Shown here one piece after another: positions 15,393 to 55,895 of a stretch of DNA of 64,000 nt. The DNA comes from Oscillospiraceae bacterium. Lineage in GTDB: Bacteria; Bacillota; Clostridia; Oscillospirales; Ruminococcaceae. Position 1 is the stretch's first letter, and each line of letters begins with the position of its first letter. Below the pieces are notes generated by a model. The model worked only from the letters and a program-made list of their open reading frames with translations, did no database searches and was not told the origin of the DNA. The stretch spans positions 1 to 64,000 of the forward strand of contig WQXO01000011.1 in assembly GCA_009784825.1 (NCBI GenBank), read 5' to 3'. A program made the position numbers and the translations under genes.

Positions 15393-17567
15393 TCACTTTT
15401 TAAATATACTCTTGAAAAACCGAATAATTGCCCATTCTTTTTTGATGTTCTCGGGTTCGTTCCGGTCTGACCGAACGCTCATATACGCTCTCTCATAGAA
15501 ATAAATCTGCGAATCAAGCATAGCATTGTCACCCCGTTTAACAATCGTATACTTCCCGTTGGGGTTTTGAATCCTCGATTTGATATTATCGTTCATCATG
15601 GTGTTGAAATCGTCGATTATGTGATTTTTTAAGGCAACGTCCCTTATAGGGGCGGCAACCTCGACACGACGTTCGGTATTGCGTGTCATAAAGTCTGCCG
15701 AGGAGATATACACACGAGCTTTTTCACCTTTCCCGAAGATGTAGATTCGGCTGTGTTCCAAAAACCGCCCGACTATGGAATGAACCCGCACGTTATCGGT
15801 ATAACCCTCCACCCCCGCAATCAGACAGCAGATTCCCCTAATTAACAATTCAACCGTGACACCGTTCCTGCTCGCCTCGACTAACTTTTCGATAATGTCC
15901 CTGTCGGTTAAGGAGTTCAGCTTTAAACCGATATACCCGTGATTTCCCCGTGTGATTTCTATATCAATCATCTCTACAACTCGTGATTTTAAGCAACGGG
16001 GTGCAACCCATAAAAGATTGGTGGATTCCACGGTTTCCCCCCGTGAAAGGGTGTTAAACACGACAGAAGCATCTGTCCCAATATCCTTGTTAGCGGTCAG
16101 CAGTGTTAAGTCGGTGTAAAGCCGGTTGGTCTTTTCGTTATAATTTCCCGTGCCGATTTGGGTGAAATAACAGATTGAGGAATTCTCTGCTGTTCCCGTC
16201 CTTTTAGTAATCAACAACAGCTTCGAGTGGACTTTCAAATCCTCCAACCCGTATATTACCTCTGCACCCGCCTCCTCTAACCTCTTCGACCAGTTGATGT
16301 TGTTCTCCTCGTCAAAGCGTGCCCGCAGCTCCAACAAAGCTAAAACATACTTGCCGTTTTCTGCGGCACGAATTAATGCGTTGATAATCTTGCTGTCAGA
16401 AGCAAGGCGGTAAAGTGTAATTTTTATAGAGTGAACGTCGGGGTCGTCTGCCGCTTCTTCTAATAAGCGAATGAACGGCTTGACACTTTCATAAGGAAAT
16501 GTAAGCAGAATATCATTTTCGGACACCTGCTGCATAATTGATTTTTTTTCGTTGACAGCGGGTGAATTCTGCGGTGTGAGCGGAGGAAAAAACAATTCAA
16601 GCGTTTCATTGGGGAAATGGTTCTTTATCTGTGCCTCAAGCCCGAACACAAACTGCATATCGAGCGGTGCAGACTGGGTATAAATATAGTCCTCGCCTAA
16701 ATCAAGATTAAGCTGCTTGACAATATTCATGTGATTTTCTTTATCGGATGAATCAAATTCAATCCTCACAGGGGCAGACTTTCTGCGTTTTTTCAGAAGC
16801 TCCTCCATTACCCCCCTAAAGTCAAGGTCATGGTCGAAAAGTGCTTCATCAACAGTAATGTCGGCGTTTCGTGTTAAACGGAATATACTGCGGTCGGTTA
16901 TTTCATAATTTCCGAAAACTGTGTGGATATACCGCATAATCAAGTGTTCGATTAACATAAACCGAACCCTGCCGTCAAGCGGAGGAAGCCACACTATGCG
17001 GTTGAACACACCCGGAGTGGTGGCAGGGAGAATGCCGATTGCCTGCTTTTGCGAATCGCCTGATTTTAAACCGGCGGCAACATAAATCTCTCTGTTTCTG
17101 AGAAAAGGAACGGGGTGCTTTTTATCAATTACCGATGGAGTGAGCAGGGGGAATACTTCTTTTTTGAAATAGCTTTCGAGATATTTTTCGTCCTGTGCAG
17201 AAAGCCGCTCGGTATAATTAACCTTAACCAACCCGAATTGGTTAAGCTGTTTACCTATTTCTTTATACGCTTTATCTCTAATGGGGACAAGTTCCTTCAC
17301 CGATTTTGAAATAAGCTTAAGCTGTTCGCTTGCAGTCAGGTTAGTTTTGTTATCGGTGGCGTCTTTTTTCAGTTTCCTGCGTTCTCTTAAATACCCCACT
17401 CTTATCATAAAGAATTCATCGAGGTTATTGCTGAAAATATATACGAATTTTAGCCGCTCGAATAAAGGAACAGAAAGATTTCCCGCCTCCTCAAGGACAC
17501 GTTTGTTGAACTTCAGCCATGATAATTCACGATTATCGAGATACGGTTTTTTAAATTCAAGCTCCAT
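15393..17567 (-). CDS. ppk1: Polyphosphate kinase 1
   Basis: The 724-residue product makes polyphosphate from ATP and is full length for PPK1. Visible features: N-terminal LDNRELSWLKFNKRVLEEA, the FSNNLDEFFMIRVGYL segment, the autophosphorylated His region (LEDLKVHSKLLLITKR), a second conserved His (FLEHSRIYIFG) and the phospholipase D-like C-terminal halves (SSADFMTRNTERRVEVAAPI). The stop overlaps the alternative polA start. It sits in the long minus-strand run between polA and the HipA-like gene. Confidence 0.96.
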   Translation of the reverse strand: MELEFKKPYLDNRELSWLKFNKRVLEEAGNLSVPLFERLKFVYIFSNNLDEFFMIRVGYLRERRKLKKDATDNKTNLTASEQLKLISKSVKELVPIRDKAYKEIGKQLNQFGLVKVNYTERLSAQDEKYLESYFKKEVFPLLTPSVIDKKHPVPFLRNREIYVAAGLKSGDSQKQAIGILPATTPGVFNRIVWLPPLDGRVRFMLIEHLIMRYIHTVFGNYEITDRSIFRLTRNADITVDEALFDHDLDFRGVMEELLKKRRKSAPVRIEFDSSDKENHMNIVKQLNLDLGEDYIYTQSAPLDMQFVFGLEAQIKNHFPNETLELFFPPLTPQNSPAVNEKKSIMQQVSENDILLTFPYESVKPFIRLLEEAADDPDVHSIKITLYRLASDSKIINALIRAAENGKYVLALLELRARFDEENNINWSKRLEEAGAEVIYGLEDLKVHSKLLLITKRTGTAENSSICYFTQIGTGNYNEKTNRLYTDLTLLTANKDIGTDASVVFNTLSRGETVESTNLLWVAPRCLKSRVVEMIDIEITRGNHGYIGLKLNSLTDRDIIEKLVEASRNGVTVELLIRGICCLIAGVEGYTDNVRVHSIVGRFLEHSRIYIFGKGEKARVYISSADFMTRNTERRVEVAAPIRDVALKNHIIDDFNTMMNDNIKSRIQNPNGKYTIVKRGDNAMLDSQIYFYERAYMSVRSDRNEPENIKKEWAIIRFFKSIFKK

Positions 17568-39096: not shown

Positions 39097-42000
39097 ATGG
39101 CTGTTTATCGCATTTTTTCAGAGAAAAAACAAGAGTTAAATTCAGAAACTAAGGTCTTGCAAGAGGAATTATTAACGGCACTCGGTATATACGCAACTCA
39201 AATCCGCATTATTAATCGCTTTGACGTTGAGGGGATAACCGAAGAGCAGTTCAAAAAAGCAATCCCCGTTATATTTTCCGACAAAAATTCGGACGAGGTG
39301 TATGACCAATTACCCGAATTTGATACAGCTCATGTATGTGCGATTGAGTTTTTACCGGGGCAATACGATGTACGCACCGACAACGCTTCACAAGGGTTAA
39401 ACACACTTTTCGGGATTGATATGCCTGTTGTAAAATACGCTAAGATATATACATTCAGCGGCATAACCGATGAGGAATTCACCCGAATTAAAAAATACAT
39501 GATTAACCCCATAGAAACCCGTGAGTGTTCTCTTATCGGCGGTGACACCTCTGCCGCCCCGAATAATCCCGAAAAAATCACCCCGTTAAACGGGTTTAAT
39601 GAATTATCTGATTCGGGATTGTCTGCTTTTCTGAAAGAACACGGATTAGCGATGGACATTGATGATATTACGTTCTGTCAGAACTATTTCAAAACAGAGA
39701 ACCGTCAACCCACAATCACCGAAATCCGCATAATTGACACCTATTGGTCTGACCACTGCCGCCACACCACATTCGGCACGGTGATTGACTCTGCGGACAT
39801 TCAAGCAGATTACATACAAGAAACGTATAACGACTACTTAAAAGACAAGGCGGCTTTGGGGCGTTCGGAGAAACCGATTACGCTTATGGACATTGCGACT
39901 ACGCCTATGCGTAGGGGGAAAAGTGACGGAACACTCATAAACCTTGACGAAAGCGATGAAATAAACGCCTGCACGGTTAAGGTTAAAGTCGATGTAAATA
40001 ATCAAGAGCAGGACTGGTTGTTACTGTTCAAGAACGAAACCCACAACCACCCCACCGAAATTGAACCGTTCGGGGGAGCGGCAACCTGCTTAGGCGGTGG
40101 AATTCGTGACCCGCTGTCAGGGCGTTCGTGGGTGTATCAAGCAATGCGGATTACGGGGGCGAGTGACCCGCTTCTCCCTGTAGAAAAGACCATAAAAGGC
40201 AAGCTGCCTCCTCGGAAAATCACAAAAACAGCGGCGGCGGGTTATTCTTCTTACGGTAATCAGGTAGGCTTAGCTTCGGGTTTATTATGTGAATTATACC
40301 ACCCCGGCTACATGGCTAAAAGAATGGAGTTGGGTGCATTAGTCGGTGCGGTAAAAGCGGAGAATGTTGTTCGTATTACCCCTACCCCCGGTGATGCGGT
40401 AATCCTCTTAGGCGGACGGACAGGGAGGGACGGTTGCGGAGGAGCGACAGGCTCATCTCGTGAACAGGACGCCGACAGCTTAGCGACATTAGGTGCAGAG
40501 GTTCAAAAAGGCACACCGATGATTGGGCGAAAGCTGCAACGCTTGTTCCGCAATCCCGAAGTGTCAAGGTTAATTAAAAAATGCAACGACTTCGGGGCGG
40601 GAGGGGTTTCTGTTGCCATAGGTGAGCTTGCCGACGGGTTAGACATAGATTTAAACGCAGTTCCTGTTAAATATGCGGGTTTAAGCGGAACGGAAATAGC
40701 AGTTTCAGAATCGCAGGAACGCATGGCAGTCGTAATCGACAAAAGCGATGTTGAAAGGTTTATTTCATTAGCAGACAGGGAAAATCTCGAAGCGAGTGTA
40801 GTTGCTCATGTCACCGAGGAAAAACGCATGAAGATGACCTTCAACGACGAGGTAATCTGCGATTTATCAAGGGAATTTCTTAATTCAAACGGTGCAGTAA
40901 AGCACACTACCGTGTCTGTGCCTGTCCCCGAGGTCAGCTATGAGCAGGATTTCAACACCTTAGAAAACATGGCAGGTGACTTAAACATCTGCTCACAGAA
41001 AGGTATTTCCTCCCGATTTGATTCAACAGTAGGTGCTAATACGGTTCTAATGCCGTTCAGCGGGAAAACGCAATCCACACCGGTTCAAGCTATGGCGGCG
41101 AAATTCCCTGTACTTGACGGCGAAACTAACACAGCCTCAATTATGTCGTGGGGGGGCAATCCGTATATTATGTGTCAGTCACCCTATCACGGAGCGGCAC
41201 TGTCAGTTTTAGAATCAGTCGCAAGGGTAGTGGCGTCTGGCGGGAGTTATAAGGACTGTTACCTCTCATTCCAAGAATACTTCGAGGCGACGAAAAACAA
41301 TCCCGCTCGCTGGGGGAAACCGTTTTCGGCGTTATTAGGTGCGTATAAGGCACAAATCGGATTAGGTTTAGCGTCAATCGGAGGAAAGGATTCAATGTCT
41401 GGCAGTTACGAGGATATTGACGTTCCCCCCGCATTATTCTCATTTGCGGTGACAACTCAAAAAGCCGACAGAATTATCTCGGCAGAGTTCAAAAAATCCG
41501 GTAGACTTTTGCAATATATCGCCCCGAATTATGATAAAAACAATATGCCGATATGGCAGAGCGTTAAGCGGGTGTTCGAGATTATCGAGCGTGAAATCGC
41601 CTCCGGTAATGCCGCTTCTGTATGGGCTTTAGGAACAGGCGGAATAGGCGAAGCGGTGTTTAAGATGTCACTCGGTAATCAAGTAGGTGCGGAGTTGGTC
41701 AGCGTCCACCCGAACGAGCTGTATACGCAGTGTTACGGTGCGTTTGTGATTGAAGCTGTTACTGAAATTCCGGAAGCACGCAAAATCGGTAAAACCATTG
41801 AAGAATTCGTAATCGACTACCGCCCTGACGGCTGGCCGTGGAAAAAGTTCGACTTAACCGAATTAAAAAAGGTTTCCGATGAAAAATTAGAACCGATATT
41901 CAAGAACACATTCCCGATTAACGACGTGCCAATTATTGAATACAACTCCCAAAAAACAACTGTCAACTATCAACTATCAACTGTCAATTGTCTAATCCCC

Positions 42001-42711
42001 GCATTTCCGGGGTCAAACGGGGAGTATGACATGGCACAAGCGTTCAACCGTGCAGGAGGTAAGACGAACATATTCGTGGTGCGGAATCTTACAGGCACGG
42101 CAGTGCGTGAGTCGGTTGCAGAATTCGTGAAGCAGGTTAATCAATCGCAAATTATCGCATTACCCGGCGGTTTTTCTTCAGAGGACAATCCCGGCGGTTC
42201 GGGGAATTACACTACAGCGTTTTTAAGCAACCCCGAAATTATGCAGGCGATTAACGAATTATTAAAGCGGGATGGGTTAATCCTCGGAATAGGTAATGGG
42301 TTCAGTGCGTTACAAAAATTAGGATTGCTTGCGGGAACACTGACATTCAACGAAATCGGGCGGCAGGTGTCACAAATGGCGAACGTCCGAGTCTGCTCGG
42401 TTAAGTCTCCGTGGCTGAACAAGTGTAAAGTCGGTGAGGTTTATAATATCCCTGTTTCAAGTGCTGAGGGCAGGTTCACCGCCGATGAAACGGTTATTCA
42501 AGGATTAATCGAAAACGGGCAAGTCGCAGGGCAGTTCACCGAATGTAACCCCTTCGGCTCGGCATACGCAATCGAGAGTATTTCCTCGCAAGACGGTAGA
42601 ATTCTCGGAATGATGGGCCACCCCGAGAGGTATTCACCCGGTTGTTTCAAAAATGTGGACGGGAATAAAGATATGCCGCTGTTTGAAGCCGGCGTGGAAT
42701 GGTTTAAATAA
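39097..42711 (+). CDS. purL: Phosphoribosylformylglycinamidine synthase, glutaminase Cys replaced
   Basis: The 1204-residue single-chain enzyme makes FGAM in purine synthesis. Synthetase landmarks are HCRHTTFGT, NETHNHPTEIEPFGGAATCLGGGIRDPLSGR (in the sequence near residue 310), GASDPLLPVEKT and the second AIRS half with SMSGSYEDI. The C-terminal glutaminase begins after a 35-bp heptamer array (41957-41991) that encodes TTVNYQLSTVNC in the linker. The nucleophile elbow, normally GICNGF, reads GIGNGF: Gly1066 (GGT, 42292-42294) replaces the catalytic Cys, although GHPERY is kept. It may therefore depend on free ammonia. Confidence 0.96.
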   Translation: MAVYRIFSEKKQELNSETKVLQEELLTALGIYATQIRIINRFDVEGITEEQFKKAIPVIFSDKNSDEVYDQLPEFDTAHVCAIEFLPGQYDVRTDNASQGLNTLFGIDMPVVKYAKIYTFSGITDEEFTRIKKYMINPIETRECSLIGGDTSAAPNNPEKITPLNGFNELSDSGLSAFLKEHGLAMDIDDITFCQNYFKTENRQPTITEIRIIDTYWSDHCRHTTFGTVIDSADIQADYIQETYNDYLKDKAALGRSEKPITLMDIATTPMRRGKSDGTLINLDESDEINACTVKVKVDVNNQEQDWLLLFKNETHNHPTEIEPFGGAATCLGGGIRDPLSGRSWVYQAMRITGASDPLLPVEKTIKGKLPPRKITKTAAAGYSSYGNQVGLASGLLCELYHPGYMAKRMELGALVGAVKAENVVRITPTPGDAVILLGGRTGRDGCGGATGSSREQDADSLATLGAEVQKGTPMIGRKLQRLFRNPEVSRLIKKCNDFGAGGVSVAIGELADGLDIDLNAVPVKYAGLSGTEIAVSESQERMAVVIDKSDVERFISLADRENLEASVVAHVTEEKRMKMTFNDEVICDLSREFLNSNGAVKHTTVSVPVPEVSYEQDFNTLENMAGDLNICSQKGISSRFDSTVGANTVLMPFSGKTQSTPVQAMAAKFPVLDGETNTASIMSWGGNPYIMCQSPYHGAALSVLESVARVVASGGSYKDCYLSFQEYFEATKNNPARWGKPFSALLGAYKAQIGLGLASIGGKDSMSGSYEDIDVPPALFSFAVTTQKADRIISAEFKKSGRLLQYIAPNYDKNNMPIWQSVKRVFEIIEREIASGNAASVWALGTGGIGEAVFKMSLGNQVGAELVSVHPNELYTQCYGAFVIEAVTEIPEARKIGKTIEEFVIDYRPDGWPWKKFDLTELKKVSDEKLEPIFKNTFPINDVPIIEYNSQKTTVNYQLSTVNCLIPAFPGSNGEYDMAQAFNRAGGKTNIFVVRNLTGTAVRESVAEFVKQVNQSQIIALPGGFSSEDNPGGSGNYTTAFLSNPEIMQAINELLKRDGLILGIGNGFSALQKLGLLAGTLTFNEIGRQVSQMANVRVCSVKSPWLNKCKVGEVYNIPVSSAEGRFTADETVIQGLIENGQVAGQFTECNPFGSAYAIESISSQDGRILGMMGHPERYSPGCFKNVDGNKDMPLFEAGVEWFK
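41957..41991. repeat. Heptamer array, in frame inside purL
   Basis: Five 7-bp units: CAACTGT, CAACTAT, CAACTAT, CAACTGT, CAATTGT. It is translated in the linker between the synthetase and glutaminase domains. Confidence 0.85.
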
Positions 42712-48737: not shown

Positions 48738-50675
48738 ATGAACGATTTAAAATGGATTACCTGTCAAGGGCTGAACATGAACCCGTATAACCTGTCAGTT
48801 CCCGAAAGGGTGCAGAGCTTCGGGTATGCTTTGGTGTTTGATGAATTCGGCGGAGGTAAGACAGCAAAGGCACAGCTGTGTATTCACGACGTTATAACCG
48901 CTGAAAGTAAGCCGAATATCCTGATTATTTGTCCGGAATCGCTTACCCAAAGCTGGTATTCCACCTTGCTTTCAGAACTCGGTGTAGATTTTAAGCTGAT
49001 TTCCGGCTTAGGTAACACCGTATCGTTCTATTCTGAGGATATATCTAATTTATACATTATTAATGAAGAGCAGTTGGATTCTGCGGGAGCAGGCGGCATA
49101 ATCGGCGATAAGAAGTTCGTGTGGGATTTAATGATTATCGACGCCAGCCTTTCGGTAGCGGGTGCAGATTGGGAGCTGTATTCCAAAAACTGCGAGAACA
49201 AGGCAAAAGGTTTATTAGTTTTTGCTTCGTCACCGTTCCCCTATGATAAAGACCAAACCGACGAGGTCAGAAAAATGGTTAAGGGGTTCTTATACAATGA
49301 CGCACAAAAAGAGCTTGTTGATGATTTAGTAATCGACGAGAGCATTATCATGTTTAACAAGAATGTGCCGGTTATGCGGTATTACAACACCGTTCGGGGC
49401 AAGCGGAATGTCGTTATGCTGGAATACGATATTGACAAGAAAATCGCAACCCCGGGTAACAGAATTGTTGATATTCAAGCGGGCGTGCCGATTTACACCT
49501 ACGGCGGCAACTTCTTTGAGGAATATAACCATAAGTTAAAAAGCACATATTTAAGACCTTATTATAATGAGGATGACATAAACGCATTAAGAGATGTGGA
49601 CACTAAATTGGGTGTATTCCTCGATAAATTAAGCGAGGTTCTTAAGAAAACCGGCAATAACATAGTTATTTACTTTACCTGCCAGAACACGCTGAACTAT
49701 ATATCAAAGGTAATTACATCAGTTTATCCGGACATTCCCGTAAGAACACAAACAGGAAGTGCGGTAGACGGTGAGTTCCTTAATCGCTTCTTCAGCGGTG
49801 AGGACAGTTCTGACGCCCGTGTAATCCTCGCTACCGACGCAATCGGCGAACGCTATCACGCACTCAAAAAAGCGACACATATTATAAATTATGAATACCC
49901 CGGAAACCCCGCAGAATTAGAACGCCGTTTCTTCCGAAGCGGAATGGAAAGCTCCACCCCCGAGGAATTCATCATGTTCAGCGATTATAACGCCATGTTT
50001 GACGGCAGAATTCTTGTAAAGGTCATGATGGCAGGGCTGTACAAGTGCTTCAAAAAGCAGATTCCTACACAGAATGTGTTGTTCTGGGTTCCCGAAGCAG
50101 AGAAATATCTCGCAGAGGTGTTGACCGACTTGAAGTTCTATTCCGAAAACGCAAAAGGTGCGGCGGCAGACTTCGCCCCGAAGTTCCGTGCGGAATATAA
50201 CATTCACGATGCGGCACAAGCCAAAACCCCGGAAAAAGCCGCCTCCTGTGCAAAGTATATGTTAGGGCGACTTGTCGGACTGTTTGACATAAACGACATT
50301 ATGGACTCTGACGACGTTAAGAAACCGGCATTGTTAAAGGCGACTAAGCAGTGTGTAGAATCAATTCGTGACGGGTACATTTATTATGATGACGAAATGA
50401 AAACACGCTTAATCAAAAACGAGAACAACCTTGACGCAATCGCACGGGAATACGAGAACAATAAGTTTATAGCAGGGCTGAAATCCTCAGAGGAAGCATT
50501 AACAGCCATGACTAAGGAAGAAAAATATCCGTTTATCAGAAACGAAATCGAGCAGCTCCCCGACAGTATGAAAACTCCCGTGCTGTATAACATATGGAAG
50601 TATTACAGGTTCAAAAAGGGGATAAAGAAACCGCTCAGAGAGTTCATGGATATGTATAACAAGGGGGTGATTTAA
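48738..50675 (+). CDS. Degenerate SNF2-like helicase/ATPase, unrecognised family
   Basis: The 645-residue product has the two-lobe shape of an SF2/SNF2 protein with changed motifs. Motif I is VFDEFGGGKTAKA at about residues 33-45 (SNF2 usually DEMGLGKT). The DEAH position reads IIDAS at 133-137, losing the catalytic Glu. Motif III-like VFASSPF is at 161-167. Lobe two has GNNIVIYFTCQNTLNYI, motif V VILATDAIGERYH (362-374) and a motif VI-like ELERRFFRSG (393-402) instead of QRxGR. A helical C-terminal region of about 170 residues follows. ATP binding looks possible, hydrolysis uncertain. Strong AGGAGG site; its stop abuts the GHKL gene start. Confidence 0.7.
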   Translation: MNDLKWITCQGLNMNPYNLSVPERVQSFGYALVFDEFGGGKTAKAQLCIHDVITAESKPNILIICPESLTQSWYSTLLSELGVDFKLISGLGNTVSFYSEDISNLYIINEEQLDSAGAGGIIGDKKFVWDLMIIDASLSVAGADWELYSKNCENKAKGLLVFASSPFPYDKDQTDEVRKMVKGFLYNDAQKELVDDLVIDESIIMFNKNVPVMRYYNTVRGKRNVVMLEYDIDKKIATPGNRIVDIQAGVPIYTYGGNFFEEYNHKLKSTYLRPYYNEDDINALRDVDTKLGVFLDKLSEVLKKTGNNIVIYFTCQNTLNYISKVITSVYPDIPVRTQTGSAVDGEFLNRFFSGEDSSDARVILATDAIGERYHALKKATHIINYEYPGNPAELERRFFRSGMESSTPEEFIMFSDYNAMFDGRILVKVMMAGLYKCFKKQIPTQNVLFWVPEAEKYLAEVLTDLKFYSENAKGAAADFAPKFRAEYNIHDAAQAKTPEKAASCAKYMLGRLVGLFDINDIMDSDDVKKPALLKATKQCVESIRDGYIYYDDEMKTRLIKNENNLDAIAREYENNKFIAGLKSSEEALTAMTKEEKYPFIRNEIEQLPDSMKTPVLYNIWKYYRFKKGIKKPLREFMDMYNKGVI

Positions 50676-53600
50676 TTGGCAAAATTAGTGGAAAAACCGG
50701 TAAAAGAACTTATAGGTGACTTTTATCAAGCCCATGCCAATGGCGATACCGAGGGTATGAAGTCCCCTCTCGGCAAATTGCAGAACATGATATTCACGGG
50801 TGAGCTTAACAGTGAACCGTTCATCGAGTATTATAATGAGATGTACAGCGGCAGAACTGCCTATAACGCCTTAATCAGCGTGACGGATTATCCGTTCGAG
50901 AGTATATTCCGTGAGCTTTTACAGAACGCTTTCGACTGTTATTACGCCACTAAGGACGTTAAGATAATGGTGAATTTCCGTGACAACGACGAAATATCGC
51001 TGTCATATAACGAAATCGGCTTCACCATGGAGCAATTCCTGTATTATTTGGCGTTCGGGCGGAACTCGGGCGACAGGAGCAAGGAGGGTCGCTTCGGTGT
51101 CGGTGCTAAGAGTGTGTTCATGAACGTGGAATGGCTTTCCATGCGTTCCAACAACTTTAGCTTTAAAATCCAAAACCAAGGCGGCACACTTAATATTCTT
51201 GAGCTTAACCTGTTAGGGTCATTGTTCAAAGGCACAGAAATCATTGTAAAGGTTTCAAGCGAGCAATATGCGAGAATCAAGAACAACTTTATGACCTTAG
51301 CAGACCAAAAAGGGCAGTTTATTAACCTTGTGGAGCTTTGCTTCGCTTTCAACCGCAAGAAAGTTATGAACCTCCCTGAAGCTAATATTGAAGAACCCGA
51401 ACGGACATTCAATATCGCAATCATGGAAAAAGGTAAGATTATCACCTTATACAAGATTATTAATAATCAAAAAGAAGATTCCGAAATGCGGACAATCCGG
51501 TTCATGCAGAACAACAAAAGCGTGGTTGACTTTATCGCACACGAGCAGGACGGGTTCAGCTATCTTATTCCTTTTGCAGTGGCAAATGCCAAGCGTGCGA
51601 GTATCGTAAAGGTATTCTTACAAAAGTATAACTTCTTTTCAACCTATGAGCTTACCGGTTTGATGAAAGCCGATTCAAAGGAAAAGTTCATTGACGAAAA
51701 GCTGTCAGCGTTCTTCATAAGCGTGTCAAACGATTATATCACATCGTTCAGAACGGGTATTAAAGCCGATTCAGAACATGTGGTAATCCAGAAAGTTGAA
51801 AAAGGCTTAAAAACGCTTATATCGGTATACAGGGAATACTTTGTTCTTGATATGCACCCACTGCCGGAAATCGAGAACAGGTGGCTTCTCCGCCCGAAAT
51901 CCTACGCTTTTGAGTTTATCAAAAACTTTATCCTAACCTCCCGCATTACCGAAAATCTAAAGAACAGCTTTCAGGAAAGCATATCCATTCAATTCCCGAA
52001 CGAGCCTGCACCTGTCAGCTATCCTGATTTAAAAGCCTCTGCGTTTTCCGTCACCAAAGGCGGCGTTTCCGAGGAGGAACACGGCAAGGGTGTCGCCTAT
52101 AAGCAGTATATCTTAGGTGAACGGGATAAGACGTTAGAGCAGCTCACACAATACCCCGAAAAAACGCTTTACCTCGCTTACGAGTGGGAGAATAAAGACG
52201 GTGCGGCAGGCAGAGAATTCTATTACGAATTCACTCGCAACAGCGGGAATTATATAATCGAATCAAGGGTCAAACCCGGATTAGCCGATTATAACCTGCA
52301 TGTCCACTTTAAGAGTGTGGTTGGTCTGCTGTTAGATAAGTTTGTGGGTAAGGACAATCTCATTGAAAATGAGGATGCGTTAGAGGGTGCGTTGTCGTTC
52401 TTTGATGAGGCGTTCAACGAGGATTATAAAATCCACATGCGTTACTATCAGTTGTATATTTCCCACCACGATGAACAGCACACCATTGATATTTCCAAGA
52501 TGAAAGTCGTGAATATCAAAAATGCAATGGAAACACTTATGAGCCGCCGTCACAGGTTCGACACCAACCAAGCGTATAACGAAACCGTGAAAATGGCACT
52601 CAACGTGTTTACACAGGGTAAAGACACTATTGCTTTCCTTAAAGAATTGAAAGCACAGGGCGGTCAAGTAACTCTCGCATTAGACATTAATAAAAAGTAT
52701 CGTTTCTCTGCATACGGAAGCCAGTTCCTAATCCCGGGGAAAACCACCAACGCCCAAATGCTCGAAATCATCGGCGACGTTGGAATGTTAATCGGGGCAG
52801 GCATGCTTAACGGGCGTAAGTTCGACTTCCCGTATTCGCCTGTACGGTATTCCTTCGACAAAGAAAAGGTTTATAATGTTCTGAAAAGCGAAACAGTCAC
52901 GCTTGAGGTTGTCGGCGAAACCTTGTCTAAGCTGTTTATGTGCGACTTAAAAATCGACAGAATTGCACTAATCGGCGAAGATGAGAAAATCTTAGACATC
53001 ATCGACCCGTGTTCCGCAGTCCCCGATAAATACAAAAAAGAAGTCGATAAGTTGGTTATCCTCAAAGAGGACTATTCCAAGGCAGAGGTTGCCGATATTG
53101 TGGAATACCTCATTACCGGCAAAAACGAGGGCAGCTTGGCGAAATCGTTCGTGCGTAATATCGTCCCGAACATCGTTCTTCCCGACCAAATGCCTTATTA
53201 TAACCGTGCATTGCCGAGCATTAACCAACAGGAATTCGGGTATCTGCGTGCCGAGTGCAAGAAGTTAGTGGAAATCCACGACCAAAAAGCGTATAAGAAC
53301 TACTTCGCTAAGGACGTTGACTCGAAATTATTCGGTTACGGCGGTTGTTGTCCCGTATGCGGTGTAGAGGCTCAAACGCTTGACAGCTTCACGGTTAAGG
53401 AATTCGAGAACGAGATTATCTCACACGATAACAAGGAACAGATATTCAAGTTCACGCTTTATATGTGTGCTAATGACTTTCATGCGGCAGGCGGCTGGGT
53501 CATTGAAGACATCAGCATCGGCGGTATGAACCCGTTCTTGTGGTTAGAGGAGATTATCAACGCTGAGGTGATTGCGTCAGAATTCCTGCATTGCAGTATC

Positions 53601-53822
53601 CGCATGACCTCGCAGGTTTCTTATGACATTCCTGCTAACGATAATGCGATTGTGCGTGATAAGGTGGTTACTACGCCGCCGAGGATTATCGATTTCGTAT
53701 TAACTCCGCTTATGGCGGCTAAGTGGGTGGAGGATAATATCGCAGAGAAAGCCCCCGATGAAAATAAATCTGTCGAAACAGCAAAAGAAGCACAAAATGA
53801 AGAAAAAGTGAATTCTAAGTAA
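50676..53822 (+). CDS. Large GHKL-ATPase protein with C-terminal zinc site, unrecognised family
   Basis: The 1048-residue product starts with TTG directly after the upstream stop (TAATTG), behind GGGGGTGA. An Hsp90/GHKL-type ATPase occupies about residues 55-350: N box FRELLQNAFD (E80, N84, D87), a G1-like NEIGFT at 112-117 and a G2 box GRFGVGAKSVF at 138-148. The long middle part matches nothing I know. C-terminal C892, C895, C931 and H936 (CPVCG...CANDFH) could bind zinc; the last 35 residues are a charged tail. The pair with the SNF2-like protein suggests a nucleic-acid-linked machine, perhaps defence or repair; that is inference. A terminator follows. Confidence 0.7.
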   Translation: MAKLVEKPVKELIGDFYQAHANGDTEGMKSPLGKLQNMIFTGELNSEPFIEYYNEMYSGRTAYNALISVTDYPFESIFRELLQNAFDCYYATKDVKIMVNFRDNDEISLSYNEIGFTMEQFLYYLAFGRNSGDRSKEGRFGVGAKSVFMNVEWLSMRSNNFSFKIQNQGGTLNILELNLLGSLFKGTEIIVKVSSEQYARIKNNFMTLADQKGQFINLVELCFAFNRKKVMNLPEANIEEPERTFNIAIMEKGKIITLYKIINNQKEDSEMRTIRFMQNNKSVVDFIAHEQDGFSYLIPFAVANAKRASIVKVFLQKYNFFSTYELTGLMKADSKEKFIDEKLSAFFISVSNDYITSFRTGIKADSEHVVIQKVEKGLKTLISVYREYFVLDMHPLPEIENRWLLRPKSYAFEFIKNFILTSRITENLKNSFQESISIQFPNEPAPVSYPDLKASAFSVTKGGVSEEEHGKGVAYKQYILGERDKTLEQLTQYPEKTLYLAYEWENKDGAAGREFYYEFTRNSGNYIIESRVKPGLADYNLHVHFKSVVGLLLDKFVGKDNLIENEDALEGALSFFDEAFNEDYKIHMRYYQLYISHHDEQHTIDISKMKVVNIKNAMETLMSRRHRFDTNQAYNETVKMALNVFTQGKDTIAFLKELKAQGGQVTLALDINKKYRFSAYGSQFLIPGKTTNAQMLEIIGDVGMLIGAGMLNGRKFDFPYSPVRYSFDKEKVYNVLKSETVTLEVVGETLSKLFMCDLKIDRIALIGEDEKILDIIDPCSAVPDKYKKEVDKLVILKEDYSKAEVADIVEYLITGKNEGSLAKSFVRNIVPNIVLPDQMPYYNRALPSINQQEFGYLRAECKKLVEIHDQKAYKNYFAKDVDSKLFGYGGCCPVCGVEAQTLDSFTVKEFENEIISHDNKEQIFKFTLYMCANDFHAAGGWVIEDISIGGMNPFLWLEEIINAEVIASEFLHCSIRMTSQVSYDIPANDNAIVRDKVVTTPPRIIDFVLTPLMAAKWVEDNIAEKAPDENKSVETAKEAQNEEKVNSK

Positions 53823-53866: not shown

Positions 53867-53894
53867 AATTCCCCCTAAATAGGGGGAATTTTTT
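53867..53894 (+). terminator. Terminator after the SNF2-like/GHKL operon
   Basis: Stem AATTCCCCC/GGGGGAATT (53867-53875, 53882-53890) with TTTTTT, separating the operon from the dcw cluster. Confidence 0.9.
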
Positions 53895-55403: not shown

Positions 55404-55895
55404 ATGTATATTTACGGCAACACCACCAGCATGGCATATGACCTTTCCACATTCGATATGGAGGAAATCGCCGAAAAGAAGAAATCACGCCCCCAATTAA
55501 GGGTGGTTCCCCTTTCTAATGCAAGGCACGGAAGCTGGTTCATGCTGTTGATTATGCTCGCTTGCATAGTAGCGACGGCGGCTGTCGTAATATTCGGTAA
55601 AGTTCAATTAAATGAAATAAACGCCGCAAATAGTGTGGCTACCGTTCAATTAGAGGAAGCCAACAAAGAAAACGCACGCCTGCAAGCCAAGTTGGACAGC
55701 ATGGTCACTCCTGCAAAAATCGAGGAATATGCACAAAATGAATTGGGTTTAAGCAGGGTTCAGCGTTCGCAGGAGTATCATTTAAGTGCGAATACCGAAA
55801 GAATTATCGAAGTGGCACAGGTTGAAGAGACCGATATGTTCTCAACGATTAACAGTTGGTTTAACGGTATTTTGGAATATTTAGGCTTTGTATAA
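55404..55895 (+). CDS. ftsL: Cell division protein FtsL-like
   Basis: The 163-residue product is a bitopic protein: about 40 cytoplasmic residues, one membrane helix (WFMLLIMLACIVATAAVVIFG, roughly 46-66) and a short extracellular coiled coil (EEANKENARLQAKLDSMV) ending with PAKIEEYAQNELGLSR, a FtsL/DivIC pattern. Position between rsmH and the penicillin-binding protein gene supports FtsL, which bridges the divisome and septal wall synthases. The last 35 residues have no obvious counterpart in the family. Confidence 0.85.
   Translation: MYIYGNTTSMAYDLSTFDMEEIAEKKKSRPQLRVVPLSNARHGSWFMLLIMLACIVATAAVVIFGKVQLNEINAANSVATVQLEEANKENARLQAKLDSMVTPAKIEEYAQNELGLSRVQRSQEYHLSANTERIIEVAQVEETDMFSTINSWFNGILEYLGFV

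Follow-up and report, generated by a model that had tools for sequence, protein, structure and literature searches.

A decayed SNF2-type helicase gene coupled to a sacsin/Hsp90-like GHKL gene: a core chromosomal pair of one bacterial genus and its possible domestication from a defence-type module

The first 64,000 nucleotides (nt) of contig WQXO01000011.1 of an Oscillospiraceae bacterium (assembly GCA_009784825.1), the stretch of DNA analyzed here and called the window, carry between glycolysis genes and the division (dcw) gene cluster two adjoining genes, P1 and P2, which raise the question of what a relative of SNF2 helicases and a very large GHKL protein do together in a bacterial chromosome. 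A sequence-only reading of the window had described two open reading frames (ORFs) of 645 and 1,048 amino acids (aa) with no gap between them and proposed a two-component machine with the GHKL protein as the main ATPase and the SNF2-like protein as its subunit. Both ORFs are present and their tight coupling is conserved among homologous pairs; the GHKL site is conserved and the partner appears ATPase-dead, as that proposal would have it, whereas its link to nucleic acids is one that we infer from the relationship of P1 to SNF2 and RapA. We propose, tentatively and with slightly more doubt than conviction, that P1 and P2 form a domesticated module of a helicase-dead SNF2 protein and a sacsin/Hsp90-like GHKL protein, a vertically inherited core pair whose likeliest role would lie in the maintenance of the chromosome or of transcription complexes and not in phage killing.

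The pair belongs to the core of its genus. P2 was found in 69 of 71 genus genomes, some of them holding only part of it, and in all 41 genus genomes with a completeness of 90% or more and a contamination of 5% or less; the two without P2 have completeness values of 76% and 86%, and G016, one of these two, has P1 at a contig edge. Our first sample gave P2 in 35 of 36 genus genomes and in 0 of 24 others, with P1 likewise in 35 of the 36, once (G017) in pieces. Wider samples yielded P2 in 6 of 197 genomes (3 of 125 genera) for the family, 16 of 394 (2 of 168 genera) for the order and 1 of 398, the window's own genome, for the phylum. No match to P2 was found among 72,556 plasmid records, and pattern-based scans of viral contigs returned no relatives of it. 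This distribution is not that of a patchy, horizontally spread mobile defence system. A phage-borne pair was considered and rejected, the only phage record, MT835670, being bacterial chromosome: this GenBank entry (MT835670.1, positions 1 to 22331), flagged UNVERIFIED and named 'Bacteriophage sp.', shares 98.5% identity over 15,848 bases with the chromosome of genome G014, P1 and P2 included.

Within the carriers, the pair is vertically inherited as a core chromosomal gene set. A PurL tree was built from 52 genomes, namely 27 of 30 carriers, the fragmentary G003, G004 and G017 being left out, and 25 of 28 non-carriers, G075 and G241 being without PurL and G105 fragmentary. All 27 carriers lie on one side of a branch with a Shimodaira-Hasegawa-like approximate likelihood ratio test value of 100, which requires one change, and 0 of 500 label shuffles gave so low a number; the tree is compatible with, and not proof of, a single origin of the pair in the carrier clade. 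Of 24 splits, the trees of P1, P2 and PurL for the same 27 genomes have 20, 20 and 19 in common, where shuffling gave at most 2, and pairwise distances of P1 and P2 correlate at a Spearman coefficient of 0.87. Both proteins evolve faster than PurL, with mean p-distances of 0.65 for P1, 0.51 for P2 and 0.26 for PurL, and both are under purifying selection, the ratio of nonsynonymous to synonymous rates (dN/dS) being 0.04 to 0.19 for P1 and 0.02 to 0.13 for P2 over those 11 pairs, of 13, whose dS is usable, values that are rough because dS exceeds 0.8 in 10 of the 11 and two pairs with the window are saturated. In the tree of PurL from 27 genomes the window PurL (39097 to 42708) has the longest end branch, a hint that its lineage evolves fast.

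The two genes also keep together physically. P1 adjoins P2 in the 40 loci of the first round wherever the contig reaches, which strengthens the view of a two-component unit, and exceptions came to light later in two genomes (G989 and G1006). The gap, 0 nt in the window, is -1, 0 or +1 nt in 30 of 37 measured pairs and 11 to 84 nt in the remaining seven, and in most of the tightly coupled pairs the Shine-Dalgarno sequence of P2, judged by eye, lies within the final codons of P1 (typically GGG GTG ATC or GGG GTG ATT before the stop). The C-terminal -GVI of P1 may be conserved because these same codons would form the P2 Shine-Dalgarno.

Residue counts given below refer to alignments A1 (P2) and A2 (P1) of 38 rows each, restricted to near-full-length copies (aligned length above 900 for P2 and above 500 for P1), so that 'invariant' partly reflects this choice; one row (L027, from MT835670) is a near-copy of another (L039, from G014). 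Another 11 copies of P2 and eight of P1 stand outside these counts, one of each (L196) duplicating L022. The window P1 does carry the intact-looking Walker A of the sequence-only reading, DEFGGGKT at residues 35 to 42, but the motif is not a conserved feature of the family and lends no support to activity: 7 of 38 homologues, that of the window included, keep GxGK[TS], with K41 in 31 and T or S at position 42 in 13. Loss of the DEAH Glu is confirmed, the window having IIDAS where DEAH is expected; at motif II the Asp is kept in 38 of 38 and Glu is found in only 3, while an intact Walker A and the Glu occur together in 0 of 38. The eight further copies agree, two having an intact GxGK[TS] and none the Glu. 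The claim of an altered or lost motif VI did not hold, as all 38 homologues have R397 and 32 have R400, and the ERRFFRSG of the window reads as the GRxxRxG part of that motif. Because Walker A and the motif II Glu are both mostly lost, the P1 family is to be read from these motifs as an ATPase-dead SNF2 relative, although the window copy keeps GGGKT.

One could object that in lineages like that of the window P1 still works weakly as a translocase, making the pair an active DNA-tracking ATPase machine, given that the window copy retains GGGKT (with DA at motif II, hence its Asp) and both motif VI arginines, and that the three copies with the motif II Glu (L047, L048 and L049) are those of two other genera. 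With the Glu absent from 35 of 38 homologues, an intact Walker A absent from 31 and the two never combined, and with these P1 copies under purifying selection, we consider this very improbable. Similarity searches place P1 near RapA, the best match among solved structures (E 2.3e-05 with the single sequence, 1.5e-07 with the profile), and its Pfam matches, Helicase_C and SNF2-rel_dom, both fall below the cut-offs. P1 matches RapA, HmaA and the DISARM protein DrmD alike, the PADLOC profiles giving E 1.5e-16 for HmaA and 3.1e-14 and 2.7e-13 (partial) for DrmD, but it differs from DrmD in lying far below the curated NCBIfam cut-off (49.1 bits against 610) and in having no conserved ATPase site. 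Among PHROGs it matches PHROG 23807, of unknown function (E 4.9e-13).

In contrast to the decayed helicase of P1, the nucleotide site of P2 is kept. The Hsp90/GHKL boxes claimed for the window (ELLQNAFD and GRFGVGAKSVF) are present, and the family conserves them throughout: E80 and N84 of the N box and G138 through G141 and G143 of the phosphate loop GxxGxG are found in 38 of 38, Y111, N112, E113, G115, F116, K145 and S146 are invariant, and position 187 is T in 37. R359, likewise in 38 of 38, is by eye a putative equivalent of the Hsp90 catalytic-loop Arg, and hhalign found no match of the S5-like stretch alone. The P2 profile aligned with six Hsp90-type proteins of the window's genome and related ones at an hhalign probability of 94 and with 20 HtpG sequences at 29. 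That profile alignment pairs YNEIGF of P2 with DNGxG[ML], so that Y111 (38 of 38) replaces the adenine-reading Asp of the G1 box DxGxG; a protein of genus member G992, discussed below, has this Tyr in each of its two GHKL domains, and in four further proteins of sacsin type the position is, by eye, His, Thr or Gly (4 of 4). Absence of the G1 Asp therefore seems, from these alignments, to be a feature of the wider sacsin-like group and not a private loss, and we dropped the idea of a unique rewiring of the adenine site in P2, other sacsin-like proteins being without the Asp as well. Two sacsin-like proteins of about 1,600 aa from other families of the class (L201:7765-12534 and L203:2928-7772) combine a GHKL domain with an HNG G1 box and a GPPGTGKT P-loop.

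The far end of P2 carries a second conserved site. Of the C892/C895/C931/H936 cluster described earlier, the three cysteines stand (38 of 38), while H936 does not hold as a zinc ligand, being His in 1 of 38; position 934, D in 32 and H in 6, is the likelier fourth ligand of a candidate metal site. In the 11 further copies, reduced ones included, C892 and C931 are found in 11 and C895 in 10, against 10 for E80, 9 for N84, 8 for G115 and 9 for R359. Outside the GHKL region P2 gave no reliable match, its profile found no PDB chain at E 10, and there was no match to PHROGs. Within that region it reaches Pfam HATPase_c_3 at E 0.0027 and the NCBIfam sacsin N-terminal model NF047352 at E 4.2e-07 (30.3 bits, cut-off 50), both below their cut-offs; its Bergerat motifs align with those of NF047352, Pfam SACS and bacterial Hsp90, from which it differs in that the rest of the protein is not recognizable. 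Across the 38 homologues one TmtA profile of PADLOC matches 30, HATPase_c_3 16 and SACS 12. The best E value over the TmtA profiles is 1.7e-12, but these span 1,302 to 1,782 positions and the window P2 is matched only over residues 77 to 147 or 78 to 169 of its 1,048; P2 differs further in being paired with P1 and core. TmtA is presumably Tiamat. The judgement that neither protein belongs to a named family is thus upheld, all Pfam and NCBIfam matches being below cut-off and those to PADLOC and PHROGs, which have no cut-offs, being partial, and no publication on the pair was found in the open-access PMC literature.

A GHKL domain of Hsp90/sacsin type would also fit another role, in protein quality control, with P2 a chaperone for clients and P1 a pseudo-enzyme adaptor that has nothing to do with nucleic acids. 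Both proteins are acidic, in keeping with this, and P2 would then be an extra, specialised chaperone, as HtpG-type HSP90 is also encoded in 24 of 24 carriers tested; with HSP90 in these and in 17 of 23 non-carriers, P2 as a replacement of HtpG was rejected. The usual partner of P2 is, however, a protein derived from SNF2/RapA, and no chaperone gene lies among the annotated recurrent neighbour clusters, and we regard a chaperone role as unlikely, though as a live rival.

A further rival is anti-phage defence. Pairs of superfamily 2 (SF2) helicases and GHKL proteins of the MORC/paraMORC type are known from restriction-modification operons, where DNA looping was proposed, and one MORC class pairs with a SWI2/SNF2 helicase (Iyer 2008, PMC2292703, in excerpt). 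Inactive SNF2 domains have been proposed as sensors in BREX PglZ (PMC12839542, in excerpt), and for the Shedu protein VcSduA it is reported that E27A in the GHKL ATPase domain abolishes defence (PMC12137116, in excerpt). P1 and P2 could be a defence system fixed in the clade, in which P2 would sense infection or bind phage DNA or protein, P1 would be the sensor scaffold, and the outcome would be arrest or DNA silencing; the components most similar to both, HmaA or DrmD for P1 and TmtA for P2, are defence proteins. A remote relative points the same way. The genus member G992, a draft that is 90% complete with 1% contamination, also encodes a SNF2 helicase of 1,193 aa with intact DSVGVGKT and QRIGRIDRRGQ (L204:8785-12366) and, 1 nt downstream, a protein of 1,593 aa with two GHKL domains, both with YNExGF (L204:12368-17149). 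The helicase, scanned as a 1,111-aa form cut by the fetched stretch, matches DrmD profiles at E 3.4e-118, its partner matches TmtA profiles at E 1.2e-83, and Pfam finds SNF2 and Helicase_C in the one and SACS in the other. In its own right this pair (L204:8785-17149) is a candidate DrmD-like plus TmtA-like system. Two plasmid records and one phage record match the double-GHKL protein, none over more than 25% of its length, and viral contigs gave no match; in 391 genomes of the class the TmtA profile made 3 matches, none of which fits the P2 profile or has an adjoining SNF2 motif VI.

Against a defence role stand the core, vertical inheritance of P1 and P2 under purifying selection, the absence of plasmid matches and the chromosomal nature of the one matching phage record. 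No defence-type nuclease or DNA methylase was found among the 10 recurrent neighbour clusters scanned with Pfam (single neighbours were not annotated). The earlier view that the site is no classical defence island is supported. As regards the DISARM genes drmA, drmB and drmC, a subset of 10 window genes was scanned with NCBIfam, of which nine bear other names and one is unmatched. On balance we consider a present defence function unlikely, though a live rival.

The G992 pair nonetheless bears on where P1 and P2 came from. It resembles them in gene order, in its 1-nt spacing, in having a SNF2 gene followed by a sacsin-like GHKL gene and in the YNExGF box, and differs in its intact helicase, in its doubled GHKL partner and in occurring in one genome only. 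The P2 profile matches the double-GHKL protein at E 1.2e-27, with an hhalign probability of 97 for each GHKL domain. From the shared order, coupling and YNExGF box, common descent of both pairs is likely, and P1-P2 may have derived by reduction from a G992-like pair. In our proposal, a module of SNF2 helicase and GHKL protein would have been acquired once in the clade ancestor, the helicase would then have lost its ATPase, and the pair would have become a core chromosomal machine. P2 would be its motor: on binding nucleotide, the GHKL domain would act through the neighbouring S5-like domain to shut a clamp formed by a dimer, and hydrolysis, aided by R359, would open it again. P1, a dead scaffold of SNF2/RapA type, would anchor the clamp to DNA or to the transcription machinery, and the C-terminal metal site of P2 might provide a further contact.

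Several results weigh against this proposal. (i) P1 itself matches the C-terminal half of the G992 helicase with an hhalign probability of 94 and the N-terminal half of that helicase with one of 12, a link of general helicase similarity only, and the one remote pair found lies in a draft genome on a possibly foreign contig, with the direction of change unrooted. (ii) The PurL tree was built by a quick method that warned of long branches and of composition, and the distances for P1 and P2 track those of PurL only moderately (Spearman 0.47 and 0.53). (iii) Both proteins are acidic, with median isoelectric points of 5.4 for P1 and 5.1 for P2, and an AlphaFold model of P2 from 3 rows, with a mean predicted local distance difference test score of 31, supports no fold. 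(iv) Some genomes hold reduced copies (loci L186, L189, L187, L188 and L185): G989 encodes only P2 residues ~551 to 1020 (496 aa) with no P1 within 3.1 kb upstream, G987 has a P2 of 905 aa without the GHKL core as well as a P1, G986 and G1007 have a P1 of ~438 aa and G115 of P2 changed to Ser, and in G1006 no P1 stands beside P2, whose C895 and D/H934 are changed. These copies therefore count against a GHKL motor that is indispensable in every lineage, and they hint that the C-terminal half is the most retained part of P2.

A bolder version holds that a defence-type module was captured once, that its helicase became a pseudo-enzyme, and that the result, often seated at the division gene cluster, is a core machine of the genus and perhaps the bacterial equivalent of DNA clamps of the MORC type; taken as a whole we find this doubtful. 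P2 next to P1 resembles the MORC/paraMORC arrangement of a GHKL and probable S5 protein adjoining an SF2 helicase gene (PMC2292703, in excerpt), but the S5 motif GhXhhpXXRhl occurs in 0 of 38 P2 homologues (residues 230 to 420), and P1-P2 differs from such operons in having no DNA methylase or nuclease among the annotated recurrent neighbour clusters, in not being patchy and in its dead helicase. In the excerpted text of the same source, modules of SF2 helicase and GHKL protein are described mainly from patchy restriction or defence loci, in contrast to P1-P2, which is vertical, usually single-copy and genus-wide, with a decayed helicase and a kept GHKL site. If domestication is the right explanation, the pair would show in bacteria how machinery of an immunity type can come to serve a core function of the cell. 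Being small and genetically clean, it would also lend itself to the question of GHKL function, which sacsin-like and MORC-like proteins pose as well.

Table 1. Positions of P1, P2 and associated features in the window.
Feature	Positions	Strand	Description
P1	48738-50675	+	645 aa, ATG start; SNF2/RapA-type pseudo-helicase
P1 parts			SNF2-like, residues ~32-140; Helicase_C-like, ~296-402; ~430-645 without Pfam match
P1/P2 coupling junction	50648-50678	+	GGG GTG ATT TAA, end of P1 and extended Shine-Dalgarno of P2; TTG directly after the stop
P2	50676-53822	+	1048 aa, TTG start; sacsin/Hsp90-type GHKL protein
P2 GHKL (Bergerat) domain, residues ~74-200	50895-51275	+	E80, N84, Y111-N112-E113-x-G115-F116, G138-R-F-G-x-G143-x-K145-S146, G186-T187
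P2 putative S5/middle-domain stretch, residues 241-365	51396-51770	+	R359 within LSAFFISVPNxxITxxRTGI
P2 C-terminal metal-site candidate	53349-53477	+	C892, C895, C931, D/H934; treble-clef-like by eye
Terminator-like hairpin, then T run	53869-53887	+	downstream of P2

The surroundings of the pair vary more than the pair itself. In 41 loci (the window and 40 others, near-copies included), P2 lies upstream of mraZ/rsmH in 19, two of these with small ORFs between, while the pair lies elsewhere in 18 and at a contig edge in 4. The dcw position occurs in genus g1 and in g123 (L049) and is absent in g118 (L047 and L048); given its presence in both g1 and g123, it may be ancestral. Upstream neighbours differ between groups: one has gpmI there, and a second has, near rnpA, yidC and khpB, a divergent block that includes genes of HD, bactofilin-like and polysaccharide-deacetylase type. 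That gpmI and mraZ were an ancestral neighbour pair is unsupported, no gpmI being labelled upstream in 15 outgroup loci, a rough test in which mraZ was labelled in 9 of 15 and rsmH in 14 of 15, with a 16th genome (G073) excluded.

In the window itself, NCBIfam names a DegV-family protein, phosphoglycerate kinase, triosephosphate isomerase and GpmI upstream, and MraZ, RsmH, a SpoVD-type penicillin-binding protein and MurE downstream, leaving the gene at 55404 to 55892 without a match. The G+C content of P1 (0.437) and P2 (0.439) does not stand out from that of the whole window (0.444). The sequence-only reading saw here an operon of its own with its own terminator. A terminator after P2 is plausible, the strong GC stem and T run being all that favours the hairpin in a scan that gave 8 terminator-like sites against 7.2 expected, but a separate transcription unit finds no support: P1 starts 31 nt after the end of gpmI and a consensus scan found no promoter-like site on the + strand starting between 48128 and 48737, so that the pair may be the tail of a pgk-tpiA-gpmI transcript in this genome. 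In G014, a stretch of about 150 bases, with no Rfam match at gathering scores, occurs twice (L039:11807-11956 and 16302-16451), one copy lying just downstream of P2 and the other overlapping an ORF of 95 aa.

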